Assembly: GCF_964275005.1 (NCBI RefSeq)
Contig: NC_092705.1
Location: 629,501 to 693,500 of the forward strand
Source of the DNA: Diadema setosum
Taxonomy: Eukaryota; Echinodermata; Echinoidea; Diadematoida; Diadematidae
Length of the DNA: 64,000 bases
Direction of reading: 5' to 3'
Shown here: piece after piece, positions 24,608-60,600 of the stretch
Position numbering within the stretch: the first letter of the stretch is position 1
Layout: each line of letters starts with the position of its first letter
Program-made: the position numbers and the translations under genes
Notes under the pieces: generated by a model
The model's input: the letters and a program-made list of their open reading frames with translations, nothing else
What the model was told of the DNA's origin: nothing
The model's database searches: none

Positions 24608-25189
24608 ATGAATGCACACGCACGCACGCTCAGCGCACATGCACACACAGACACCTGCACTTGCACTCAAACCTCTTCCCACGACCCTTCAGTTTCTACA
24701 CATACCCCCACACCGACAATGATCCCTCATGGTATGATCTTTGATGATCAAAGTTTGAATGACTCCGAAAGTGGTTATTACACAACTGCCGAGTTTAATG
24801 CACTGATAAAACAAAATAAATTTCAATCATTTTTTGATTTGTTTGGTCTTTTTCACATCAATGCCAGAAGTTTAAATAAGAATTTTGATTCTATAGAATC
24901 ACTTCTTTCCTCTTTACAAAATTTTCAGTTTAGTATAATTGGTATATCAGAAACTTGGCTTAATACAAATTCACCACCAATATTTAATTTAGAGCATTAT
25001 CGAACGTATCGTTCTGATCGTTACTTAGGTAAGGGAGGTGGGGTTGCTTTCTACATTAAAAATAACATTGATATGAAAGTCAGGCATGACTTACATATCG
25101 AGGGTACGGAAGATATTTTTGTTGAAATTTTGAACAGTAAAGCAAAAAATATAATAATAGGTAATATATATAGGTCCCCCAAGAAATAA
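24608..25189 (+). pseudogene. LINE ORF, endonuclease N-terminal part
   Basis: The ATG at 24608 opens a frame whose first ~35 residues come from a CA-rich stretch. The apurinic-endonuclease fold starts near residue 78: LFHINARSLNKNFDSIESLL, then IIGISETWLN, GGGVAFYIKNN and IIIGNIYRSP. This is the usual order in CR1/Daphne-type LINEs. The frame ends at a TAA beside the LTR insertion site. One extra A in the AAGAAATAAC stretch would explain why the rest of the domain (from 32541) is one base out of phase. The ORF is therefore broken by a frameshift as well as by the insertion. Confidence 0.75.
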
Positions 25190-25190
25190 C
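25186..25190. repeat. Target-site duplication, left copy
   Basis: ATAAC sits directly before the left LTR and is repeated directly after the right LTR at 32539-32543. Five bases is normal for Ty3/gypsy integration. Confidence 0.85.
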
Positions 25191-26248
25191 TGTCACAGTG
25201 TGTTACAAGTGACCTAGCTTATTGGTCTAGATGAGGCAGTTTGATCACCCGAAATGAAATATAAGAAGAGATAAAGTACCGTTGAAATTATGTGTGCATT
25301 TATCAAAGTGTAATCAAGTCTTCAAATCATACATCCGGTCGTACAATATAATAGTCTTCTGAGCTCAGAGCTTGAACATATCTCGCAGATTAAATGACTG
25401 TTATCCCATATATCAAATACTAACAACCTTCTAACTCCAAAACTAATAACTCTCAATATGTATCTTTTGACTTATAAACTAACTCAGTAACCCAGTACTA
25501 TCACACTCCTCACAATATTGACATAATTATGAGACGGCGTGGGCATGTGGCTTGCCACAACAAAAGATATCCCTGACCATAATGTCGGTCAGCGTTCAGG
25601 GTTCACTTCAATACAAACTTGTGGTTCCGGTTTATCATTTATTGGGAAATGTTGTCATACTGACTTTGCTTCGCGAATCGGCGTTCTCCATATGCGACGA
25701 CAGCCTTGCGTCCTTGGAGACGGCGAACGCGAAGCGCCTGGAGAATGTGTCGGGGCGACAACGACGTCCTTCGACCGGTCAACCGCGGTTCAGCGAAGGC
25801 GACGGATCCAGCCCCGTGTAACCGGCGTTACTGTGGAGGGGGTGTGTCTCGAACTCGGCGAGGGAAATCCGGGCAAACGGATCAGGCAGCGGCTGAACAG
25901 GAGGCACCTGTGGAGTCTCGACCCGGTGATTGTGTGAGCTTATGTGGACGAAGCTCCACTATACCCTTAACAGCCGTAGTTGGGCCTTAGACACCCCAGT
26001 TGTGGCATCACTGCTAGACAAGGCTCTGCAGCGTCTGGTCTGTCTGGTGACAAGACAGGGTGTGGCAGCTTCACTTCTTGTGAGCCTGCCTATACATACG
26101 CTGGCTGCTGCAAACTTAGCTATGCTGTGGAACAATAGCTGTCAAACACCTGCATGTGGGATGCCATCAACCCGGCTAAATTCATATTCAAATTCACTTC
26201 CTCCCAGACTGGAGGGTATTTAAATTAGATTTAAATCAACTCCTTACA
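25191..26248 (-). repeat. 3' LTR of the Gmr1-type element (left copy)
   Basis: 1058 bp, TG...CA ends on the minus strand, same length as the right copy and nearly identical. It includes a GC-rich ~400-bp central block. The open frames inside it are identical in both copies and are not thought to be genes. Confidence 0.9.
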
Positions 26249-26266
26249 CTACCCCCCCCCCCCATT
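26249..26266 (-). promoter_or_regulatory. Polypurine tract of the LTR element
   Basis: On the minus strand a run of twelve G after AAAT ends three bases before the TG of the 3' LTR. Its place and composition fit the plus-strand DNA primer site. Confidence 0.6.
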
Positions 26267-26624
26267 TCAAGAAAATGTATCACATTTTGCCAGACCCAAC
26301 GGAAGAGCTATTTTCACTCACTATGAGTGAATGATTTTCTGTCACTATTTTATCAAACCCAACATAAAAGTTAATTTCACTTGTTATGCTTTTCTCTCCC
26401 TATAACCTGTCAAATGAAATAAAGTGACGCTTTTTCGTCCTAAGGCTGACATGTATTCTTCATGCCTAATGAAAAAAGGGGTTATAATTAAAAATTTCCT
26501 CCTGGGAAGATATATATTCCCCTAAACTAGATTAATATATTTCTATCACACTAATTGATATACCTTAGCCAAAATGTAAACATTAGATGCATTCAAAACA
26601 GAGAATGGGGCAATACCGAGAAAT

Positions 26625-29600
26625 TCAGCTTCTGCTTAGGAAGTCGGCTCCAACATTGTCGGAGCCACGAATGGCTTCGATGCGGAAGCGGAATGGTTGG
26701 AGGGCGAGAGCCCATCTCATCACTCTGCTGTTGATGCGTTTGGTACGGTTGAGATAGAGGAGCGGTTGGTGGTCGGTTTCAAGGGTGAATTCAGTGCCTT
26801 CAAGGTACGTTTGGAACTTGTGAATTCCCCACACCAACGCCAAGCATTCTCGCTCGATCGTGGAATAGGCTTGTTCTCGAGCCAAGAGTTTACGACTCGC
26901 ATAGGCGACTGGATGTTTCTCTCCATCGTGCTCTTGGAGGAGAACAGCTCCGAGCCCAGTTGATGAGGCGTCTGTCCTAACGATGAATCTTTGCTGGACA
27001 TCGGGTAGACAGAGAATGGGGCTCTCTACAAGACTACCCTTCAGTTGCATGAAGGCCTCCTCTTCACGCTCAGTCCACTGTACTTGCCTTGGCTCTCGGC
27101 TCCTCGTCTTGTCAGTCAGGGGTGCTGCGATCGACGCAAAATTTGGGATGAAGCGTCTGTAGTAACTAGCCAGACCTATGAAAGCTCGCAGCTGTTTCTT
27201 GGTTTCTGGCCTAGTCGCGTTCTGGATTTTCTCCACTTTGTCTAGCATGGGCTGGACTTTTCCGTGTTGCACGAGGTGTCCCAAGAACTCTACTTGTTTG
27301 CAACCAAGTTGACACTTGCTGGGGCGAGCAGTCAGTCTTGCTGCTCTCAGTCGTCGAAGCAACTCGCGTAGTGTATCGAGGTGCTCCTCCCATGTCCGTG
27401 TGTGTATGAGGATGTCATCCAAGTAGTTTGTCACGTGCTTCATGCCTGCCAGCAATTTCCGCATCACTCGGCTGAACGTGGCCGGTGCGTTGACTAGCCC
27501 AAAAGGCATTACGCGGAAATGGTACAGCCCACCTGTAGTCTGAAATGCTGTCTTCTCCTTTGCGTCATCTGAGAGAGGGATCTGCCAGTATCCCTTACTC
27601 AAATCCACTTTGGAGAAGTAGTGTGATCCTGACAGTCCAGCGAATATTTCTTCTGCGTTGGGAAGGGGTTCGGCGTCGAAGACAGTGACGCGATTCAGCC
27701 GTCGAAAATCGATGCAGAAGCGATTACTGCCGTCAGATTTCTTCACGATCACAATTGGGGAAGAGTATGGGGAGTTAGACTTTTCTATGACCCCTAACTC
27801 GACCATCTTCTCAACTTCCTCTTCAATCACGCCGCGGAGGGCATGAGGGACAGGATACGGTTTCTGTCTGACCGGGTCATCTGATGTCAGCCGGATTGAG
27901 TGGCTGCCTAGGTGTGTCTTACCCGGGAGGTCAGTCATGACATCCCTATACGCACCCATCAACCTCTTTATCTGGCCTTGCTGCTTAGCCTCCACGTCTG
28001 GTCCGAACTTTACGTCCTCTACAGTCTCGTTTGCCTCTAGGACTGGGACTTGTACGGTCATGGGGCTGGGGGTTGGAGGTCCGACTACCTCCTCGTCGTC
28101 GTCGTCGTCGTCATCCTGGTCGACGATCGTGGCCTGAGCGACGACTTCCAACATCCCTGCAGCATACACCTCAGAACCTTCATTCACATGATTAGAGGTT
28201 ATCTTACTCAAGTCTACTCTCTCTGTGTATTTCTTCAACAGGTTGGCGTGGAAAGTCTTCATCTTTCCATTGACATCTAGACAACAATTATTGTCACCAA
28301 GCCTGTGTGCAACTCTAAATGGGCCTTTCCATTGTAGGAGAAGCTTATTGTGATAAGTGGGTAGGAGGATTAGTACTTTGTCATCCGGGTTAAATCTACG
28401 CTGCCTACTCCTAGCATTGTAGTGTTTTGCATTCCTGGATGTTGCCCTACGTAGTTCCTCATGAGCCGCGGCTAGCGTGCTCTTCAGCCTCTCTTTGAGA
28501 TCGACTACGTACTGGTACGTGGTCTTCAACTCTGGGTCATGAGTCTGACCACTCCACAAGTCCTTCAGAATCTCTAGGGGACCTCTCACCTGCCTACCAT
28601 AGATCAACTCAAATGGTGAGTAACTAAGCGAAGCCTGGGGGGCGGACCGGTATGCAGACAACACTGGTCCCAAGTATCTGTCCCAATCGTGAGGATGGTC
28701 AGCACAGACTCTCTTCAAGATTTGTTTCAACGTCTGATTAAATCTTTCGACTAATCCGTTGCACATCGGATGGTATGGGGTGGTGGTTAGTTGTCGAATG
28801 GACAGTAACCTACTAACTTCTCGCATCATGTCAGACGTGAATTGACTACCTCGGTCTGTTAGTATCTCTTGAGGCACACCTACCCGGCAAAACACCTCGA
28901 CCATAGCCTCTGCTACTGTGGTAGTTTCGATGTTGGGTAGTGCAACAGCCTCCGGATATTGAGATGCATAGTCGACGATCGTCAGGATGTATCGATTCTT
29001 CCTGGTCGTCGTGGGGTGGATAGGGCCTACTATGTCGATAGCTACTCGGAGAAAAGGTGTGTCAATTACTGGCATCTGACCAAGTGGTACCTTGGGAACT
29101 CTTCCCTTTGGCACCGTCCTTTGACAAATATCGCAAGAGCAACAGAAACGAGCAACGTCAGCATGAATGCCAGGCCAGAAAAAACAAGACAAAACCTTCT
29201 CTGTAGTCTTACCTATGCCTTGATGACCACTCATGATACCTTCATGAGCAAGGGACAACACTGCCTTTCGAAATGGCCTCGGCACTACCAACTGTTTCAC
29301 CGAATTACTAGTCTGGCTTTTAGGCTGGAATATCCTGTACAACAGTCCGTCTTCGAAGACGAAGTGTGTATCTCTCCTCTCTTCATCTGACAACCTAACC
29401 TGAGCAAGCTCCCTGGCTTTCTTCAAAGTGGGATCGGTTGCCGTTTCCTGCCTGATTTGTTCAGGGGATACATTTGGGATTTCCGATGGAACAACAAGAG
29501 GGCGTTGCGGGCGCTTTGATTCCCGACTCTGAGATCTTGTCTGCACAGCCATGCCTACACTAGTACTAGTACTACCATCACATATGACGTCATCATCCTT

Positions 29601-29981
29601 CCAACCTGGATGGGGGTCACTGACTGAGTGAACATTCTCAATGTAACCTATTATGACATCGAAGACAGGCGTCTCCATGCATAAGGCCTCTGTAGTGCCT
29701 ACAAACAACGGGGAACTAATGTGAACGCGCGCCAATGGGAATTGACGCACAGTTCCGTCAATCAAAAGACATTGTCTATGTTTGCCTGTGAACTGATCAG
29801 AAGTCACAAGAGATTTCCTCACTACTACGCCCGAACAGCCCGTATCATGAAGCACAGCTACCTTCGTGGACCCAATCCTACCATCTACTACAGGTAACTG
29901 ACTCCGCCAATGACGCTGACATGCAGCACACATCAATGGGATTTCTTTAATCCTCTCCCTGGGAGCTGGTTCTCCCTTCAC
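26625..29981 (-). CDS. pol: pol polyprotein: protease-integrase-RT-RNase H
   Basis: The open frame is about 1118 codons. The aspartic protease has DTG at residues 46-48. Integrase has an HHCC zinc-binding region at ~246-286, D316, D376 and E412 as the catalytic triad, and a GPF-type module near 553. Reverse transcriptase spans ~705-900 with YLDD at 853-856. RNase H covers ~995-1115 with D1003, E1043, D1070 and a late D1113. The RT and RNase H sequences are clearly Ty3/gypsy-like, yet integrase lies between protease and RT, as in Gmr1 elements. The frame differs from gag and touches its end; the real start, and whether frameshifting joins them, are not settled. Confidence 0.9.
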   Translation of the reverse strand: MKGEPAPRERIKEIPLMCAACQRHWRSQLPVVDGRIGSTKVAVLHDTGCSGVVVRKSLVTSDQFTGKHRQCLLIDGTVRQFPLARVHISSPLFVGTTEALCMETPVFDVIIGYIENVHSVSDPHPGWKDDDVICDGSTSTSVGMAVQTRSQSRESKRPQRPLVVPSEIPNVSPEQIRQETATDPTLKKARELAQVRLSDEERRDTHFVFEDGLLYRIFQPKSQTSNSVKQLVVPRPFRKAVLSLAHEGIMSGHQGIGKTTEKVLSCFFWPGIHADVARFCCSCDICQRTVPKGRVPKVPLGQMPVIDTPFLRVAIDIVGPIHPTTTRKNRYILTIVDYASQYPEAVALPNIETTTVAEAMVEVFCRVGVPQEILTDRGSQFTSDMMREVSRLLSIRQLTTTPYHPMCNGLVERFNQTLKQILKRVCADHPHDWDRYLGPVLSAYRSAPQASLSYSPFELIYGRQVRGPLEILKDLWSGQTHDPELKTTYQYVVDLKERLKSTLAAAHEELRRATSRNAKHYNARSRQRRFNPDDKVLILLPTYHNKLLLQWKGPFRVAHRLGDNNCCLDVNGKMKTFHANLLKKYTERVDLSKITSNHVNEGSEVYAAGMLEVVAQATIVDQDDDDDDDEEVVGPPTPSPMTVQVPVLEANETVEDVKFGPDVEAKQQGQIKRLMGAYRDVMTDLPGKTHLGSHSIRLTSDDPVRQKPYPVPHALRGVIEEEVEKMVELGVIEKSNSPYSSPIVIVKKSDGSNRFCIDFRRLNRVTVFDAEPLPNAEEIFAGLSGSHYFSKVDLSKGYWQIPLSDDAKEKTAFQTTGGLYHFRVMPFGLVNAPATFSRVMRKLLAGMKHVTNYLDDILIHTRTWEEHLDTLRELLRRLRAARLTARPSKCQLGCKQVEFLGHLVQHGKVQPMLDKVEKIQNATRPETKKQLRAFIGLASYYRRFIPNFASIAAPLTDKTRSREPRQVQWTEREEEAFMQLKGSLVESPILCLPDVQQRFIVRTDASSTGLGAVLLQEHDGEKHPVAYASRKLLAREQAYSTIERECLALVWGIHKFQTYLEGTEFTLETDHQPLLYLNRTKRINSRVMRWALALQPFRFRIEAIRGSDNVGADFLSRS

Positions 29982-30838
29982 TTCCTGACTATCAACAACA
30001 ACCCGCCTGTCTCGCGCGTATGACTACTATCTTGCATAGCATGGGAACAAGTCGGACACGACGCCTGAGCACTCTCAAATTCAGGGGGCGTATCCTTCGT
30101 AGGGGATTTATCTGACTGCCTACTCGGACTCTGCTTGCGACCTCTATGACCTTGCGTACTCACAAGACTAGCAGCTTGAGGCTTCAGTCTACACCTAGAA
30201 GCTACATGACCCATCTTATCACAGATAAAGCATGGGCCGACTCTACGCCTATTCGTAGGTGGACTCCGACTGGGATTCCATGTACGGTTTTGCCCTTCAC
30301 TAGACTGATTAGGGGGTCTACTTGCTAGTGGTTTGGCCTTCTTGTCACCCTTACTCAACTTAGCGACACCAAAATGACCACCATGCGCCTGTACATACGT
30401 GTCTGCCAGGCTACTCATCTCGGAAAGAGTCTTGGGTTTCCTCTCCTTGAGAAACAATGCCAAAGGGGTTCCCCCTCTATCAAGAAGCTGCTGTCTCAAC
30501 AACATGTCTACTAAGCCTTCATATGTCCGCTTTGTCTCAGACAATTCTATCCAACGACTCAAGTAATGTTCCAATCGAACTACAAACTGGCTGGGTGTCT
30601 CCCCCTGCTCTGGGTTAGAGTACCGAAACTTTTTGCGGAAATCATCGCAGGTAAGTTCAAACCTCCTCAACAGTGCTTCTTTTAGAGCATCATAATCATC
30701 GGCTTTATCATCTGGAAGCCTACAATACACATCAAGGGCCTTGCCCTGCAACAGTGCACTAAGACTGATTGCCCAACTAGTCCTCGGCCAGGACTGACTT
30801 TCTGCGTATTTTTCAAATCGGCTTAAATACGCATCCAT
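29978..30838 (-). CDS. gag: gag polyprotein
   Basis: The open frame is about 286 codons. Residues ~1-130 resemble the retrotransposon gag capsid region of gypsy elements (for example RFELTCDDFRKKFR and PSQFVVRLEHYLSRW). Near residue 203 there is one CCHC zinc knuckle, CFICDKMGHVASRC, used for RNA binding. It lies directly upstream of pol on the minus strand. The gag region probably extends some way upstream toward the primer site; that front part is unresolved. Confidence 0.85.
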   Translation of the reverse strand: MDAYLSRFEKYAESQSWPRTSWAISLSALLQGKALDVYCRLPDDKADDYDALKEALLRRFELTCDDFRKKFRYSNPEQGETPSQFVVRLEHYLSRWIELSETKRTYEGLVDMLLRQQLLDRGGTPLALFLKERKPKTLSEMSSLADTYVQAHGGHFGVAKLSKGDKKAKPLASRPPNQSSEGQNRTWNPSRSPPTNRRRVGPCFICDKMGHVASRCRLKPQAASLVSTQGHRGRKQSPSRQSDKSPTKDTPPEFESAQASCPTCSHAMQDSSHTRETGGLLLIVRK

Positions 30839-31460
30839 ATTATCTTTCCCTTCTGAAAAAGGGGGGAGCTTAGGGGATGGTGCCCAACGACGGCTGTTGT
30901 CCTACTCCGTGCTATCCATACTCTCAGAAAGTCTCTGATTTTGTATGCGTGCCAGCTCAAGTTTTTTTTCTAGGATCCTCTCCTCCTGTTTTCTATCTTC
31001 CCTATTTGCCTGACGTTCGTCTCTCCCTAGTGTCTACAAATTTTTGAAGGTCCTCTCCTGACATACCCAGTTCCTTTCCAATATCAAGCCATTTAGTACC
31101 CATAATGAGCCCTACAGATTACACTTATACCAGTTAAATTATCAGTATCTCACTTTTCCCCTGGGTGTCCCACAATCAGATGTTAGAAAACTATGTTAAC
31201 TAACGCAATTGTTAGCAATTCTTGCATAATTTGGTAACTCACCAATGACAGAAGTGGGCTAATTGCTTGCGCTTGTCCTTGCCGCGCGTGCCGGATGCTA
31301 GCAGTGATGGTGCACTGGCGTGTCCGTGGTTCCGCTAGGCCAGCTGCACTTGCAAGAGCCCTTCTGCTAACTGCAACTTAGAAAATGGTTACAAAAATAC
31401 GTCAGTACAATGGTCCTTCAATTATACATCAAAACTCGGGTAAAGTTATGATCAAACAAC

Positions 31461-31477
31461 TCCCGGACAAGCCCCCA
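31461..31477 (-). promoter_or_regulatory. Primer-binding site, tRNA-Pro type
   Basis: The plus strand reads TCCCGGACAAGCCCCCA, which matches the 3' end of animal tRNA-Pro at 16 of 17 bases including CCA. It lies three bases inside the 5' LTR, the expected place for minus-strand priming. The tRNA match is from memory. Confidence 0.8.
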
Positions 31478-31480
31478 AAT

Positions 31481-32538
31481 TGTCACAGTGTGTTACAAGT
31501 GACCTAGCTTATTGGTCTAGATGAGGCAGTTTGATCACCCGAAATGAAATATAAGAAGAGATTAAGTACCGTTGAAATTATGTGTGCATTTATTAAAGTG
31601 TAATCAAGTCTTCAAATCATACATCCGGTCGTACAATATAATAGTCTTCTGAGCTCAGAGTTTGAACATATCTCGCAGATTAAATGACTGTTATCCCATA
31701 TATCAAATACTAACAACCTTCTAACTCCAAAACTAATAACTCTCAATATGTATCTTTTGACTTATAAACTAACTCAGTAACCCAGTACTATCACACTCCT
31801 CACAATATTGACATAATTATGAGACGGCGTGGGCATGTGGCTTGCCACAACAAAAGATATCCCTGACCATAATGTCGGTCAGCGTTCAGGGTTCACTTCA
31901 ATACAAACTTGTGGTTCCGGTTTATCATTTATTGGGAAATGTTGTCATACTGACTTTGCTTCGCGAATCGGCGTTCTCCATATGCGACGACAGCCTTGCG
32001 TCCTTGGAGACGGCGAACGCGAAGCGCCTGGAGAATGTGTCGGGGCGACAACGACGTCCTTCGACCGGTCAACCGCGGTTCAGCGAAGGCGACGGATCCA
32101 GCCCCGTGTAACCGGCGTTACTGTGGAGGGGGTGTGTCTCGAACTCGGCGAGGGAAATCCGGGCAAACGGATCAGGCAGCGGCTGAACAGGAGGCACCTG
32201 TGGAGTCTCGACCCGGTGATTGTGTGAGCTTATGTGGACGAAGCTCCACTATACCCTTAACAGCCGTAGTTGGGCCTTAGACACCCCAGTTGTGGCATCA
32301 CTGCTAGACAAGGCTCTGCAGCGTCTGGTCTGTCTGGTGACAAGACAGGGTGTGGCAGCTTCACTTCTTGTGAGCCTGCCTATACATACGCTGGCTGCTG
32401 CAAACTTAGCTATGCTGTGGAACAATAGCTGTCAAACACCTGCATGTGGGATGCCATCAACCCGGCTAAATTCATATTCAAATTCACTTCCTCCCAGACT
32501 GGAGGGTATTTAAATTAGATTTAAATCAACTCCTTACA
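31481..32538 (-). repeat. 5' LTR of the Gmr1-type element (right copy)
   Basis: 1058 bp and nearly identical to the left copy; about three substitutions were seen by eye, all within the first ~190 bp in plus-strand order. It is followed by the ATAAC target duplication and the resumed LINE. Confidence 0.9.
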
Positions 32539-32543
32539 ATAAC
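32539..32543. repeat. Target-site duplication, right copy
   Basis: ATAAC directly after the right LTR, matching 25186-25190. Confidence 0.85.
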
Positions 32544-35171
32544 ATTGATTGTTTTTTAGAAAGTTTTGATCAAATTTTGAGTATTATTTCTCAGGAAAAG
32601 AAAGACAGTTTTATAATGGGAGATTTTAATATTGATCTTTTAAATAATTCTGATAATCATACAATGCAGTTGTTAAGTTTATTGGCAACTTATTTATTTC
32701 AACCACATATCAGCAACCCAACAAGAATTTCTAGTACATCGAAAACTCTTATTGATAACATATTTTCAAATGTAATAAACACAGAATTTACAAATGGTAT
32801 ATTTTATTATGATATATCTGATCATTTACCTGTTTTTACCATCAATGATAGTTTTTTGCAAACAAAACAATATTTTGATCATAAAAAATCTCAAATGTAT
32901 TATAAGGAAACAGAAAGTAACATTAACTCTTTGATATTTGATTTAGCGCAGGAAGAATGGGGCGATGTATTTGATGAAAGCAAGGCTGATACTGCTTATG
33001 AAAAATTTATCAGCAGGTTATTGTATTATTATCAGAAAAATATTCCTGTCACGTGAGTGACTTTTTTTTTCTCTGCTACTCTGACACCGAACATAACTGC
33101 ATGCAAACAGTTTGAATTTCCGTTCTTTCGGTGTCAGAGTAGCAGAAAAAAAAAAGTCACTCACGTGACAATTCCTTTAGTTAAACGGAAACCTTTAAAG
33201 AAAAATAGACAACCCTGGATTACCAAAGGTATTATGCGGTCTATATCAACCCGTAATAAGTTATATAAGCAAGCAATAAAGAATCAAAGTAATTATTTAT
33301 TTATGAAATACCGGAAATATAGAAATCAATTAACATCAGTAATAAGATTGTCCCGAAAATTGTATTATTCAAATAATATAGAAAAAAATAAGGATAATAT
33401 TTTTTCATTGTGGAAAACTGTCAATGCTCTCATGGCAAAGACGGTAAAAGAAACTACCAACTCTATCATCATTGACAATGAGGAAATTACTGATTTTACC
33501 ACAATCGCTAACTCATTTAATGATTACTTTATAAATATTGGTCCTAGTTTAGCATCTAATATGAACTCGTGTAATACACATTTTACTGATTATTTACCTA
33601 ATCCTTGTGAAAATTCATTATTTCTCACGCCTACCAATGATCATGAAATAATCAATGTTGTCCAGAATCTGAAAACAACTAAATCGAGTGGGCATGATGG
33701 TCTTAGTGTTCATTTATTGAAACAAATAATTCTTTACATTGCAAACCCCCTAACTCACGTATTCAATATGTCTCTTTCAACAGGCATTTTTCCGAACTCA
33801 TTCAAACTTGCAAAAGTTATTCCTATTCATAAAAAAGATGACTCTAAATTAATGAGCAATTATAGACCAATTTCATTATTACCAAGTATATCCAAAGTTC
33901 TTGAAAAAATTGTGTATAAAAGGTTATATCAGTTTTTACAAACCAATAATTTATTGATACCCAATCAATTTGGATTTAGAAGTGGATATTCTACTGATTA
34001 TGCAATCGCTCACATGTGTGATAAAATAACTGAAGCTTTTGCTGATAAGAAGCATGTTATAGGTATATACATGGATTTGTCGAAAGCATTCGACACCATC
34101 GACCATGAAGTATTGATATAATATAAACTTAATACGTATGGAGTCCGAGGTCACGCTCTGCTCTGGTTTATAAATTATTTGCAAAACCGTCAACAGTATG
34201 TTAGTTTTCAGTCTTATGAATCACAGAAACTTGATATTAAATGTGGGGTACCTCAAGGTTCCATTTTAGGGCCTCTGTTGTTTAACATTTATATAAATGA
34301 TACTATAAGTTCCTCTCCATCTCTGAATTTTATACTTTCTGCTGATGATACATCTATTATTACATCAGATTATGATATAGGGACCCTTGTTAATCGTTTG
34401 AACACTGAATTATTGAATATATTGAATTGGTTTAAATCAAACAAGTTATCTTTGAATGTTAACAAGACAAATCTTGTTCATTTTAGAAAACCCTTCTCAC
34501 AGGATCTTAATGTCAATATATCAATTGATGGGTTTTCCCTTTGCGAGAAACAGGTTATTAGATTTTTAGGCATTACAATCGATTCTCATTTGACATGGAA
34601 CGAACATATATCCTGTCTACAAAGGACCCTGTCAAGAAATATTGGCGTACTCTGGAAGTTGAAAGATCTCCTATCAGAACGATCCCTGATTATTTTATAT
34701 AATTCTTTAATTTTGCCTCATATATTGTATTCAAATATTGTATGGGGAAATTGTAGTATTACTAAACTGAATTCATTGTATTTACTCCAAAAGCGTGCTA
34801 TTCGCATTATTACTAATTCCACATATTTATCTCATACAGATCCTTTATTTCATCGTTTGCATTCTTTGAAGCTGCAGGACATCCACATTTTATAAACAGG
34901 TATATTTATGTACAAGTACGCAACAAATCAACTTCCCTCTTTATTTCATAATATTTTTCACTTAAATTCGAATATACACACATATCCAACTCGCCGTTCG
35001 ACAGACTTCCACCTTGTAAACCCCAAAACTGTTTTAGCTCAGAAATCAATTAGACATTACGGTCCCAATGTTTGGAATAACCTACCTGATCAATTAAAGC
35101 AGTGTACTTCACTTTTTTCCTTTAAAGCTCATTTAAAAAAGTATTTATTATTGAAATATGTTTCCAGTTAG
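32541..35171 (+). pseudogene. LINE ORF, endonuclease end plus reverse transcriptase
   Basis: The endonuclease finishes with FIMGDFNIDLLN and YYDISDHLPVF. Reverse transcriptase follows: LAKVIPIHKKDD, SNYRPISLLPSISKVLEKI, NQFGFRSGYST, GIYMDLSKAFDTIDHEVL, GVPQGSILGPLLFNIYIND and LSADDTS (S replaces the usual Y/F before ADD). A C-terminal region with HYGPNVWNNLPDQL ends at TAG 35169-35171. Defects are a 124-bp MITE at 33047-33170, an in-frame TAA near 34119 just after DHEVLI, and another in-frame TAA near 34893 after QDIHIL. The open frame from 33057 begins inside the MITE, so its first ~38 residues are not LINE protein. Confidence 0.85.
33047..33170. mobile_element. 124-bp foldback MITE inside the LINE ORF
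   Basis: The two halves are near-perfect inverted repeats of ~46 bp. The left starts TGTCACGTGAGTGAC, then a T-run and CTGCTACTCTGACACCGAA; the right is its complement with one substitution and one indel near the T-run. About 30 bp separate the arms. ATTCC flanks both sides (33042-33046 and 33171-33175). Removing the MITE and one ATTCC restores a continuous LINE peptide across the junction. TG...CA ends with a 5-bp duplication do not fit a common MITE superfamily well. Confidence 0.85.
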
Positions 35172-35929: not shown

Positions 35930-36920
35930 TTATGCTTATTACGGTATTCAAGACACTTACATAGTTTGAAATTGAAAATTAATGTTATGAATGGATTCCC
36001 CGATATAGAAAACCCTTAAAAAGTTTTATTTCCCATGATTTCTGTTTTCCTGTACCAAAATTAGTAATATATTACATATTTTATATATGCTAATTACGTA
36101 ATTATGCTAATTAGGCTAATAAAAAAAAAGTTGCCCAAGGTTGCCAAGGTGGCAACCAAGCTAAATTTACTCCAATACCCTTCTAGAACACGAATCAATA
36201 ATAAAAAAAAAAAACTTGTACTTAAAAATTTTTCCAGGTCTAGTAAGTTTATATTACATATTTTATATATGCTAATTACATATTTTATATATGCTAATTA
36301 CGTAATGAATGGATTACGTTATGAATGGATTCCCCGATATAGAAAACCCTTAAAAAGTTTTATTTCCCATGATTTCTGTCTTCCTCTACCAAAATTAGTA
36401 ATATATTACATATTTTATATATGCTAATTACGTAATTATGCTAATTAGGCTAATAAAAAAAAAGTTGCCCAAGGTTGCCAAGGTGGCAACCAAGCTAAAT
36501 TTACTCCAATACCCTTCTAGAACACGAATCAATAAAAAAAAAAAAAAAAAACTTGTACTTAAAAATTTTTCCAGGTCTAGTAAGTTTATATTACATATTT
36601 TATATATGCTAATTACATATTTTATATATGCTAATTACGTAATGAATGGATTACGTTATGAATGGATTCCCCGATATAGAAAACCCTTAAAAAGTTTTAT
36701 TTCCCATGATTTCTGTCTTCCTCTACCAAAATTAGTAATATATTACATATTTTATATATGCTAATTACGTAATTATGCTAATTAGGCTAATAAAAAAAAA
36801 AGTTGCCCAAGGTTGCCAAGGTGGCAACCAAGCTAAATCTACTCCAAAACCCTTCTAGAACACGAATCAATTAAAAAAAAAAAAAAAATGTACTTAAAAT
36901 TTTTCCAGGTCTAGTAAGTC
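35930..36920. repeat. ~335-bp satellite, right of the LINE
   Basis: The landmark CTAATTAGGCTAATAAAAAA recurs near 36107, 36441 and 36778, with periods of 334 and 337 bp. Units contain GGTTGCCAAGGTGGCAACC (a 7-bp stem with a 5-base loop), a variable A-run, TTTTTCCAGGTC, repeated TATATATGCTAATTAC and GAATGGATTCCCCGATATAG. Neighbouring units are nearly identical, so the array is recently homogenised. The 60-110-codon frames in the units are repeat artefacts. Confidence 0.85.
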
Positions 36921-57600: not shown

Positions 57601-60600
57601 TGAAGAGGACACTTGTCATTTGCTTCAGGTGGAGATCTCTAACAGGTTAATATATTCACAAGAATCCATTCATTCACTTTTAATCATGAATTACCAATCC
57701 AACAAGCAGATAGTCAAGTGTAAATAAAGACAAGTCCCTTTGCCTTGTGATGATAACCTAAAATGTACTAAAATAAAATGATAATAATACTAATAATAAA
57801 TGAGAAATATAAAAGAGACAGCTGCCCGGTGCGGCTAAGATCATGCTTATGTTTCATGTAAAAATGTCAGGATTAGTGGATATGCCATCATACGAAGGTC
57901 ATCTTACAGCAAACGTGAAACCTACCTCAAAGTTGATGTAGTACTGCATTTGGTTGACAAAGTGAATCATCTCAGCAGCAATGGTGTGACAGCGATGAAG
58001 GAGTGGATAAAGCTCTGCCAAAGGATAATAAATAATTTGTCTTGATCAGAGACTAGTAACATGCAACAAACCTCTTACATTGCAAACACTCCTCATTGCA
58101 TTTATCTTGGAGAACAAATAATGACACCACACAAAAGAATTATTCTCATGTTTACTAGCAAAGCCATGTGAACATGGCCCCTGGACCGCTGGTGTAGAAG
58201 AGCAGTGTCTTGTAGGCAAAGTTGAGCAGGGCAATCCAGCCGTATTCCCGTTAATGTTTGATTATCATTTGTGTATTTTTATGTTGATATGTTGATTTTA
58301 TGTGGAAAGTAAATACAATACAATACAATACAATACAATACAATACAATACAATACAATACAATACAATACAATACAATACAATACAATACAATACAATG
58401 TTCAACGTTGCATTACCAAATAACAAATTGTGAAATAACTTGCTATTGTGTAGTGATGATCAATATCACACAATTTTTGTACCTGGTATCTGCGTAGCCA
58501 GTCTGAATGTTGGTAAAGTTGCATATCAAAGGGATGAAAAACATTAAGTTCTAGTAAGGATATAAAATCTGCTCTGATAAAAGGAGTTGCATGGGACCTA
58601 CCAGGGATGGAGCGCAGAGCCTTAGCATTGGCCATCTGGTTCTTCCAGACTTGGGCCAAGACATACTCCATACGCTTGGCTCGCCAGAGAAAGTTGAAGA
58701 CTCTGAGGTAGAGGATCTTACACTGTGCAGTGAAGACTGTACTGATTGGACCATCAAGATGGTAGTCAAGACTGAAGACATCCCAACCAGTGTCACCGGG
58801 AGAAATCTGAAAACAGCGTCACAAATTCACACTTTTAGAGCCAAAAACCATCAATGGTGTACTGAAATTGAAGTCTGTTGTTACTCACATCAGAGTCTCT
58901 GAAACAGGCTGACTTTCAATCACTCAACAAATTATTGATTGACACTCAGCAAAACCCTAGAGATTTATCTATAACATGAATCTTGAAGTACAGTACACTC
59001 CCATTATAATGAACATGTTTATTTCGGTTACAGTGAAATAAAAGTTCAGGCCGCAAGATCATCCTCTCTTTGTTTTTTTGTTTTTATTGTTTATTTGTTC
59101 CGTTATAACGAAATTTCAATATAGTGTAACACATGAATATATTCACGGCACGACATTTTCGCGAATTGGAGTTGACAGCCTTTTTCGTGGCGTTCAATGC
59201 ATATAGTGTAGATAAGAAATTTTGTATGCCTTGTAATTTCGCGAATCTTTGCGCTCGCGAAATCCGCAAAATCAAAATGCACGCAAACATTCCTTGTTTT
59301 ACAGTTAACGAAAGAAAACTGCCGGTCCCACGAACTTCGTTATCTAACAGAAATCCACTGTAATACAAAACATACTGGTAATAGTTGATATGGAAATCAG
59401 AATAAAAAAAAAGATCCATAGAAACTAACATTTGCACAACATAATAACAGAAATCATTATAATGTAATTTACTTTAGGAAACTGCATGAAACAATGAAAG
59501 GATACTGTCAACAATTTGATCATTATAGACACAGGTTACTAAACAAACTATTCAGATTAGCCTATGGCAATGACAGAGGCATTCTCAAATCTGACAGACA
59601 TTATTAGACTTAAAAAAACAGCTCATTTTTTCCCCCCGTCAAAGCTTGTTCACTGCTCCACTGCCATGTACACATTGCAGCAAATACCTTTGTGCAAGCA
59701 TCAGAAGATCACATGTTTAAATCTCAATCATCTTCAACCTTTCTGCCAAATCAAATTCGACACATCCTGTATTCACACTGGGTCCCGCATTGTGGGTACA
59801 GTCGGGAGAGATCTTATCTTTTTTACGACTGACTGGATTCACTACTATCGACTGTCCCTGAACTGAAGCAAGAATTACAGTTCGAGGCACTCCCTGCCAT
59901 TTGACATATGCACATTTTATAAATACATCTAGGTGCTATCAAAATCAAGCCCAAGGTCACTCTCTCTTCTAAATTTTGTCCCCGGGCCCGACAAGCTTCG
60001 CAGGGACACTGTGAGAAATCCCAGTGAGCATCCACACTAGGGTTTGGGAGGGAAAAGTCCTGCACCACAGGACTTTCCCCTCTAAATCCATAGTGTGGGT
60101 GTGGGACTTAGGGTGGGTGTGGGACCCTAGTGTGAACGTGAGGAAAGTAACCCACCTCAAGAAGTCTGACATCAAGCCTGTTGAGGATGTCAGAGTCTTC
60201 ATATTGAGCATTGGTAGCTCTGACAGCAGTCTCCAAGACTCCAGTCAAGTTGTGAAGATACAGCATGTTGGCTGGCTTGGCTAAATCAGCCCTGGGCATG
60301 ACAAATGCAAACATGTTGGTGTCAATGACAGCAATAGGTTATGTCAAAATTCCATTAGGACATTAATCATGAAGTAGCAGTGGTTAATGAAAAGTTTCAT
60401 CAAGCCATTGAGTATGAGGAAATATCAAAAATAGGGGGGAAAAAACAGTCTTCAAATTTGCTCAGCTAGTAAGAGCTTTTAACCCATTGAGGACAGGCTG
60501 ATTTTGCTATAACACACATTTCCCATAGACACCTGCCCAAGTATACGAGGGACTCGTCTTCAGCAGGTGAATAAAGGAGAGATGTATTAGCTGTATATTT

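Follow-up and report, generated by a model that had tools for sequence, protein, structure and literature searches.

The pol frame of an LTR retrotransposon lying in the 64,000-nucleotide stretch of DNA analysed here (the window) includes Ty3/gypsy-like domains with the integrase (IN) ahead of the reverse transcriptase (RT), and the question raised by this locus is to which kind of element such a frame belongs. It is very probably a recently inserted Ty3/gypsy LTR retrotransposon of the Gmr1 kind, with the pol order protease (PR)-IN-RT-RNase H (RH), Gmr1 having been compared by description only. This assignment is based on the domain order, on matches to Ty3 over copia, on concordant groupings of the RT and the IN, and on a SCAN-type gag.

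The pol frame and its domains

The pol open frame (29981-26625, minus strand) comprises 1118 codons from a GTG, or 1132 aa from stop to stop, which is far beyond chance expectation. The order of domains in this single frame is protease, integrase (HHCC, DD35E and GPF), RT (YLDD) and RNase H, and Pfam matches and motifs agree on the arrangement that had been read from the letters alone in the first-pass annotation. A domain search of the open frame, proposed there as a check, returned a gypsy-type pol with the integrase ahead of the RT. Integrase_H2C2, rve, RVT_1 and RT_RNaseH each scored above the Pfam cut-off, and RT_RNaseH_2 was likewise matched.

All of the pol domains are on the minus strand. 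The integrase includes an HHCC zinc domain (29115-29285; Integrase_H2C2, residues 233-289, E 4.8e-18) with ligands H246, H253, C283 and C286, a DD35E catalytic core (28767-29048; rve, residues 312-405, E 7.1e-13) with the triad D316, D376 and E412, where the D376-E412 spacing is 35 residues, and a C-terminal GPF (GPY/F-type) module (28212-28331; WKGPF at 551), which was identified as a motif and aligned with its equivalent in the Ty3 integrase. The RT core (27276-27746; RVT_1, residues 746-902, E 1.7e-31) includes NYLDDIL at 852, and RNase H is the last domain (26691-27077; RT_RNaseH, residues 994-1097, E 1.5e-37, with motifs at 1003-1111). In relatives, Y[LIMV]DD is absent from 11 of the 70 RT matches that cover this site, and some copies are decayed.

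The putative protease (29652-29876), with DTG at pol residue 46 and an Asp_protease_2 match at E 0.016, is the weakest of the pol domain calls. The call was made because a D[T/S]G motif is present and the region is conserved in relatives, where 31 PR matches include 15 with DTG, and all eight rows inspected have DTG or DSG.

The element and its insertion site

Analysis of the LTRs and the target-site duplication (TSD) placed a 7,348-bp element at 25191-32538 of the window, on the minus strand. Comparison of the window with itself identified a 5' LTR (31481-32538) and a 3' LTR (25191-26248), each 1,058 bp long and with TG...CA ends, that differ by 3 mismatches. The computed TSD, ATAAC, is found on the left at 25186-25190 and on the right at 32539-32543. 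A primer-binding site, TGGGGGCTTGTCCGGGAG, read by eye, adjoins the 5' LTR (31460-31477, minus strand) and presumably resembles a tRNA-Pro site, and a polypurine-like tract (a G-run, then TAG), read directly, adjoins the 3' LTR (26249-26263, minus strand). Hence, the LTRs and short TSD, which were computed, and the primer site and purine tract, which were recognized by eye, are all as in Ty3/gypsy elements. The element had been called young and near whole. It is indeed young, as the LTRs differ at only 3 of 1,058 positions and are flanked by the 5-bp ATAAC on both sides. It is near whole as far as the LTR pair, the TSD and the full pol frame are concerned, and its gag is broken.

The element is inserted in a non-LTR LINE on the plus strand. 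The front of the LINE endonuclease lies at 24608-25189 (Exo_endo_phos, profile positions 4-109 of 225), and the remainder, made up of the endonuclease end and the RT in several frames, at 32577-34895 (Exo_endo_phos_2, E 0.002 and under cut-off; RVT_1 in two pieces). When the flanks were joined at a single copy of the TSD, a 180-codon frame crossed the site in a frame that differs from that of the preceding endonuclease part, and the target LINE copy was thus itself broken. Elsewhere in the window, a 337-bp unit is repeated in tandem at 35984-36919 (2.8 copies, 97% matches), and AATAC forms a perfect array at 58312-58399 (17.6 copies).

Relatives in the host genome

The host genome (912.7 Mb) looks to be that of an echinoderm. 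When its contig with cytochrome oxidase 1 (C102) is translated with table 9, AAA stands at the second Asn of PRMNNMSFWL, a conserved Asn position, and at three further Asn, and this code, which flatworms also use, points to an echinoderm. The RT piece and the IN core piece were used as queries against the genome, and the best 150 of 1,852 first-look candidates for RT and the best 150 of 1,832 for IN were scored. Among these listed matches, 85 of the 150 for RT pair with one for IN on the same strand and within 3.5 kb, leaving 65 unpaired, and the IN is upstream in 85/85, a count that is biased toward the IN-first kind because the IN query came from the window element. The listed starts of the paired IN and RT are offset by 749 to 1,568 bp (median 1,406). 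An RT search with an RT-first query produced at least 150 further matches.

When 85 loci were sorted by domain order, 65 had IN before RT, six (L077-L082) had RT-RH-IN, five had a single domain and nine had no match. The 65 IN-first loci are on many contigs and, as some of them overlap, do not represent 65 separate elements. The IN-first families in this genome span 37-100% integrase identity, and those at L071-L075 and L084 form a second, distant IN-first subgroup with 37-43% integrase identity. An architecture that the first-pass annotation had described as rare is common in this genome, and its main observation, a Ty3/gypsy element with integrase before RT, holds for the window element and for relatives on many contigs.

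The RT-first sample is small, with six loci that include both domains and one more by RT. The loci L077-L083 were picked from the RVT_1 list as probable gypsy RTs with their order then unseen, and L083 has RT and RNase H matches and no IN match. In L076 (C2:45994488-45996700), from a gypsy family whose RT is 57% identical to that of the window element, a protease-like stretch immediately precedes the RT with no IN between, and this locus is accordingly taken to be RT-first.

Phylogeny of the RT and the integrase

Trees were built from 21 IN-first and six RT-first representatives, one or a few per identity level, together with Ty3. Rows with a short alignment were dropped (L069 from the RT tree, L032 and L033 from the IN tree). 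In the RT tree, the IN-first rows lie on one side of a branch with support 93/89, which became 87/80 with L076 included (20 of 28 rows) and 85/81 with copia added. A branch of the IN tree likewise separates the IN-first rows (19 of 26) from all others (support 73/92). The RT-first rows, Ty3 included, make up 8 of 28 and 7 of 26 rows, respectively; L076 is placed in the RT tree apart from the IN-first rows and, when copia is present, the RT-first rows do not form a single group. Thus, in both trees the IN-first elements are one group apart from RT-first gypsy, with moderate support that is under the strict mark in each, and Ty3 and copia are long branches.

The RT and IN distances are correlated, with r 0.935 for 18 IN-first rows and 0.863 for 25 gypsy rows, and none of 2000 permutations was as high in either case. 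Hence, the RT and the IN were inherited together.

Gag

The gag frame of the window copy (29978-30838, minus strand; 286 aa) encodes a SCAN-like part of the capsid and a single CCHC knuckle, both of them just under the Pfam cut-off (SCAN 26.2 bits versus 27; zf-CCHC 17.1 versus 20.8), and there is also a weak PNMA match (E 0.0097). A single-sequence fold of the SCAN-like part (152 aa, 30381-30838, minus strand) had a mean pLDDT of 47.1 and was set aside. Upstream of the ATG, the frame is interrupted by an in-frame stop, beyond which gag-like sequence resumes in other frames, as judged by eye, such that the 5' part of gag (30839-31103, minus strand; three frames read by eye) is split by a stop and a frame change. 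Since its gag is broken, the window copy is probably not autonomous at present.

Gag and pol are in different frames in the window copy. In a copy of the same family (L042, contig C4), 303 codons upstream of PR, including SCAN and CCHC, are in the PR frame. At least 250 open codons precede PR in its frame in 19 of 31 loci, and the 12 that have fewer include the window copy (49) and its family members L015 (53), L041 (20) and L043 (80). Programmed gag-pol frameshifting was considered and set aside, as the SCAN and CCHC match is in the frame that enters PR in 9/9 IN-first gag pieces, L042 included.

SCAN was matched in all 12 IN-first gag pieces, nine times above the Pfam cut-off. These pieces are that of the window (just under), nine more (seven over) from nine of the 31 loci, not all of them independent (L042 belongs to the family of the window copy, and L055 is close to L056), and two from the distant subgroup, L089 and L090 (both over), which lie upstream of L071 and L073, respectively, and are also SCAN-type. 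Among the Pfam matches of the three RT-first gag pieces (L086-L088) SCAN is not listed, and PNMA was matched in all three, twice over the cut-off and most strongly in L086 (E 3.3e-38). The L042 gag also has a weak PNMA match (E 0.0062). These pieces raise the possibility, which we consider rather unlikely to hold, that in this genome the class of gag is tied to the order of pol, SCAN-type with IN-first and PNMA-type with RT-first, across two deep IN-first subgroups. If such a linkage were general, pol rearrangement and SCAN-type gag would have become fixed jointly in a single event, and the pol order could be predicted from gag alone.

Relationship to Gmr1

The original Gmr1 paper is reportedly that of Goodwin and Poulter. 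The window element resembles the Gmr1 clade, by description, in its Ty3/gypsy domains, in the integrase upstream of the RT in pol and in a SCAN-type gag capsid, for which the window copy itself scores slightly below the SCAN cut-off. With moderate support, the RT and the IN both separate IN-first elements from RT-first gypsy, and none of the features compared differs from those of the clade. Members of the clade cited in a passage of PMC8220671 are the cod Gmr1 and a Ciona element, and the copia-like order of Gmr1 is mentioned in part of PMC2774666. Elements reported as of the same kind in other hosts, and likewise compared here by description, are the annelid Lamellibrachia family LGF3, placed in Gmr1 and with integrase upstream of RT (in the section of PMC8220671 that deals with it), the Gmr1-like elements of crustaceans, also with integrase upstream of RT (according to a passage of PMC3587641), and around 200 copies of Gmr1-like elements in the frog Silurana (as given in a portion of PMC4131045). 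In the part of PMC8556966 that concerns this clade, Gmr1 is among the clades found in several phyla, and LGF3's annelid clade was not recovered in that paper's own analysis.

The first-pass annotation had assigned the copia-like order to a Gmr1 group in deuterostomes. The order is as it stated, and the restriction to deuterostomes is contradicted by the crustacean (PMC3587641) and annelid (PMC8220671) elements, in the passages concerned. The IN-first order and its occurrence outside deuterostomes have both been published already and, as the architecture is known, the element is unsurprising in itself.

That the window element represents a separate lineage which gained the IN-first order independently of Gmr1 is improbable. 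The comparison with Gmr1 by description only and the moderate support for the IN-first branch leave it some room. Against it, the 12/12 IN-first gag pieces with SCAN fit reports, in parts of PMC3424704 and PMC4592553, that the SCAN domain is derived from, or strikingly homologous to, the gag of Gmr1-like elements, whose capsid reportedly gave rise to the SCAN domain of vertebrates. In addition, Gmr1-like elements are reported from a tunicate, a fish and an annelid (a passage of PMC8220671) and from crustaceans (a passage of PMC3587641), hence one in an echinoderm-like host is to be expected. When viral_contigs were scanned with the RT, five stretches were matched and none was confirmed as a relative.

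It is very improbable that the order is a private rearrangement, a chimera or a mis-assembly of the window copy, for which the broken gag is the only argument. The order is common to the 65 loci (some overlapping), including families down to 37-43% IN identity, the RT and IN distances covary, and the whole frame is enclosed by one near-identical LTR pair and a TSD. The IN-first order is inherited and is not private to the window copy.

Ty3/gypsy or copia

The Gmr1 assignment places the element in Ty3/gypsy, and the closest solved structure is that of Ty3 for the RT/RNase H and the IN alike. The E values of the RT/RNase H against Ty3 structures are 1.1e-84 and 3.7e-84, and we take PDB 4ol8 to be the same Ty3 RT. 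The yeast Ty3 has a homologous RT/RNase H and an integrase with a GPF-type C-terminus, but in the Ty3-G Gag-Pol chain (7q5b) the RT/RH aligned at 598-1008 and the IN at 1088-1450, whereas the window element is reversed, with the IN and then the RT. A gypsy-type RT with RNase H and an HHCC/DD35E integrase with a GPY/F module, as expected of Ty3/gypsy, are both present, and the RVT_2-type RT of Ty1/copia is not: RVT_2 is absent from the Pfam matches of pol at E up to 0.1.

The chance that the element belongs to Ty1/copia, where integrase ahead of RT is normal (as set out in passages of PMC8220671 and PMC2774666), is negligible, as the domain order alone favours it, whereas pol matches RVT_1, RT_RNaseH and Integrase_H2C2, the host genome's own copia RT is of the RVT_2 family and lies far from all other rows of the RT tree, and the RT of the window element, distant from it, groups with gypsy. 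Neither of the outcomes that the first-pass annotation had named as contrary to its reading, an RT and IN from different superfamilies or an RT that groups with copia, was found.

Copia elements are seemingly rare in the host genome, with nine RVT_2 matches compared with 1,832 to 1,903 first-look candidates per gypsy query (three queries).

Proposed life cycle and significance

Past activity of the element is inferred to have run as follows. RNA driven by the LTR would have been translated as Gag and Gag-Pol, and the SCAN-like capsid would then assemble. The protease would release the integrase from the middle of Pol and the RT/RNase H from its end, a predicted processing, and reverse transcription would be primed, by a putative primer tRNA, at the site adjoining the 5' LTR. 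Finally, the integrase would insert the DNA, producing the 5-bp target duplication.

Apart from its recent insertion, the element is ordinary. The value lies in the host genome, where many diverse IN-first families are found beside RT-first gypsy and copia, and which permits testing of whether pol was rearranged a single time and whether this rearrangement is coupled to the SCAN-type capsid.

Two RT places (C12:5320379 and C24:26712559) were found both by the IN-first query (53%) and by the RT-first query (51%, 55%), and these could be informative about how the rearrangement arose.
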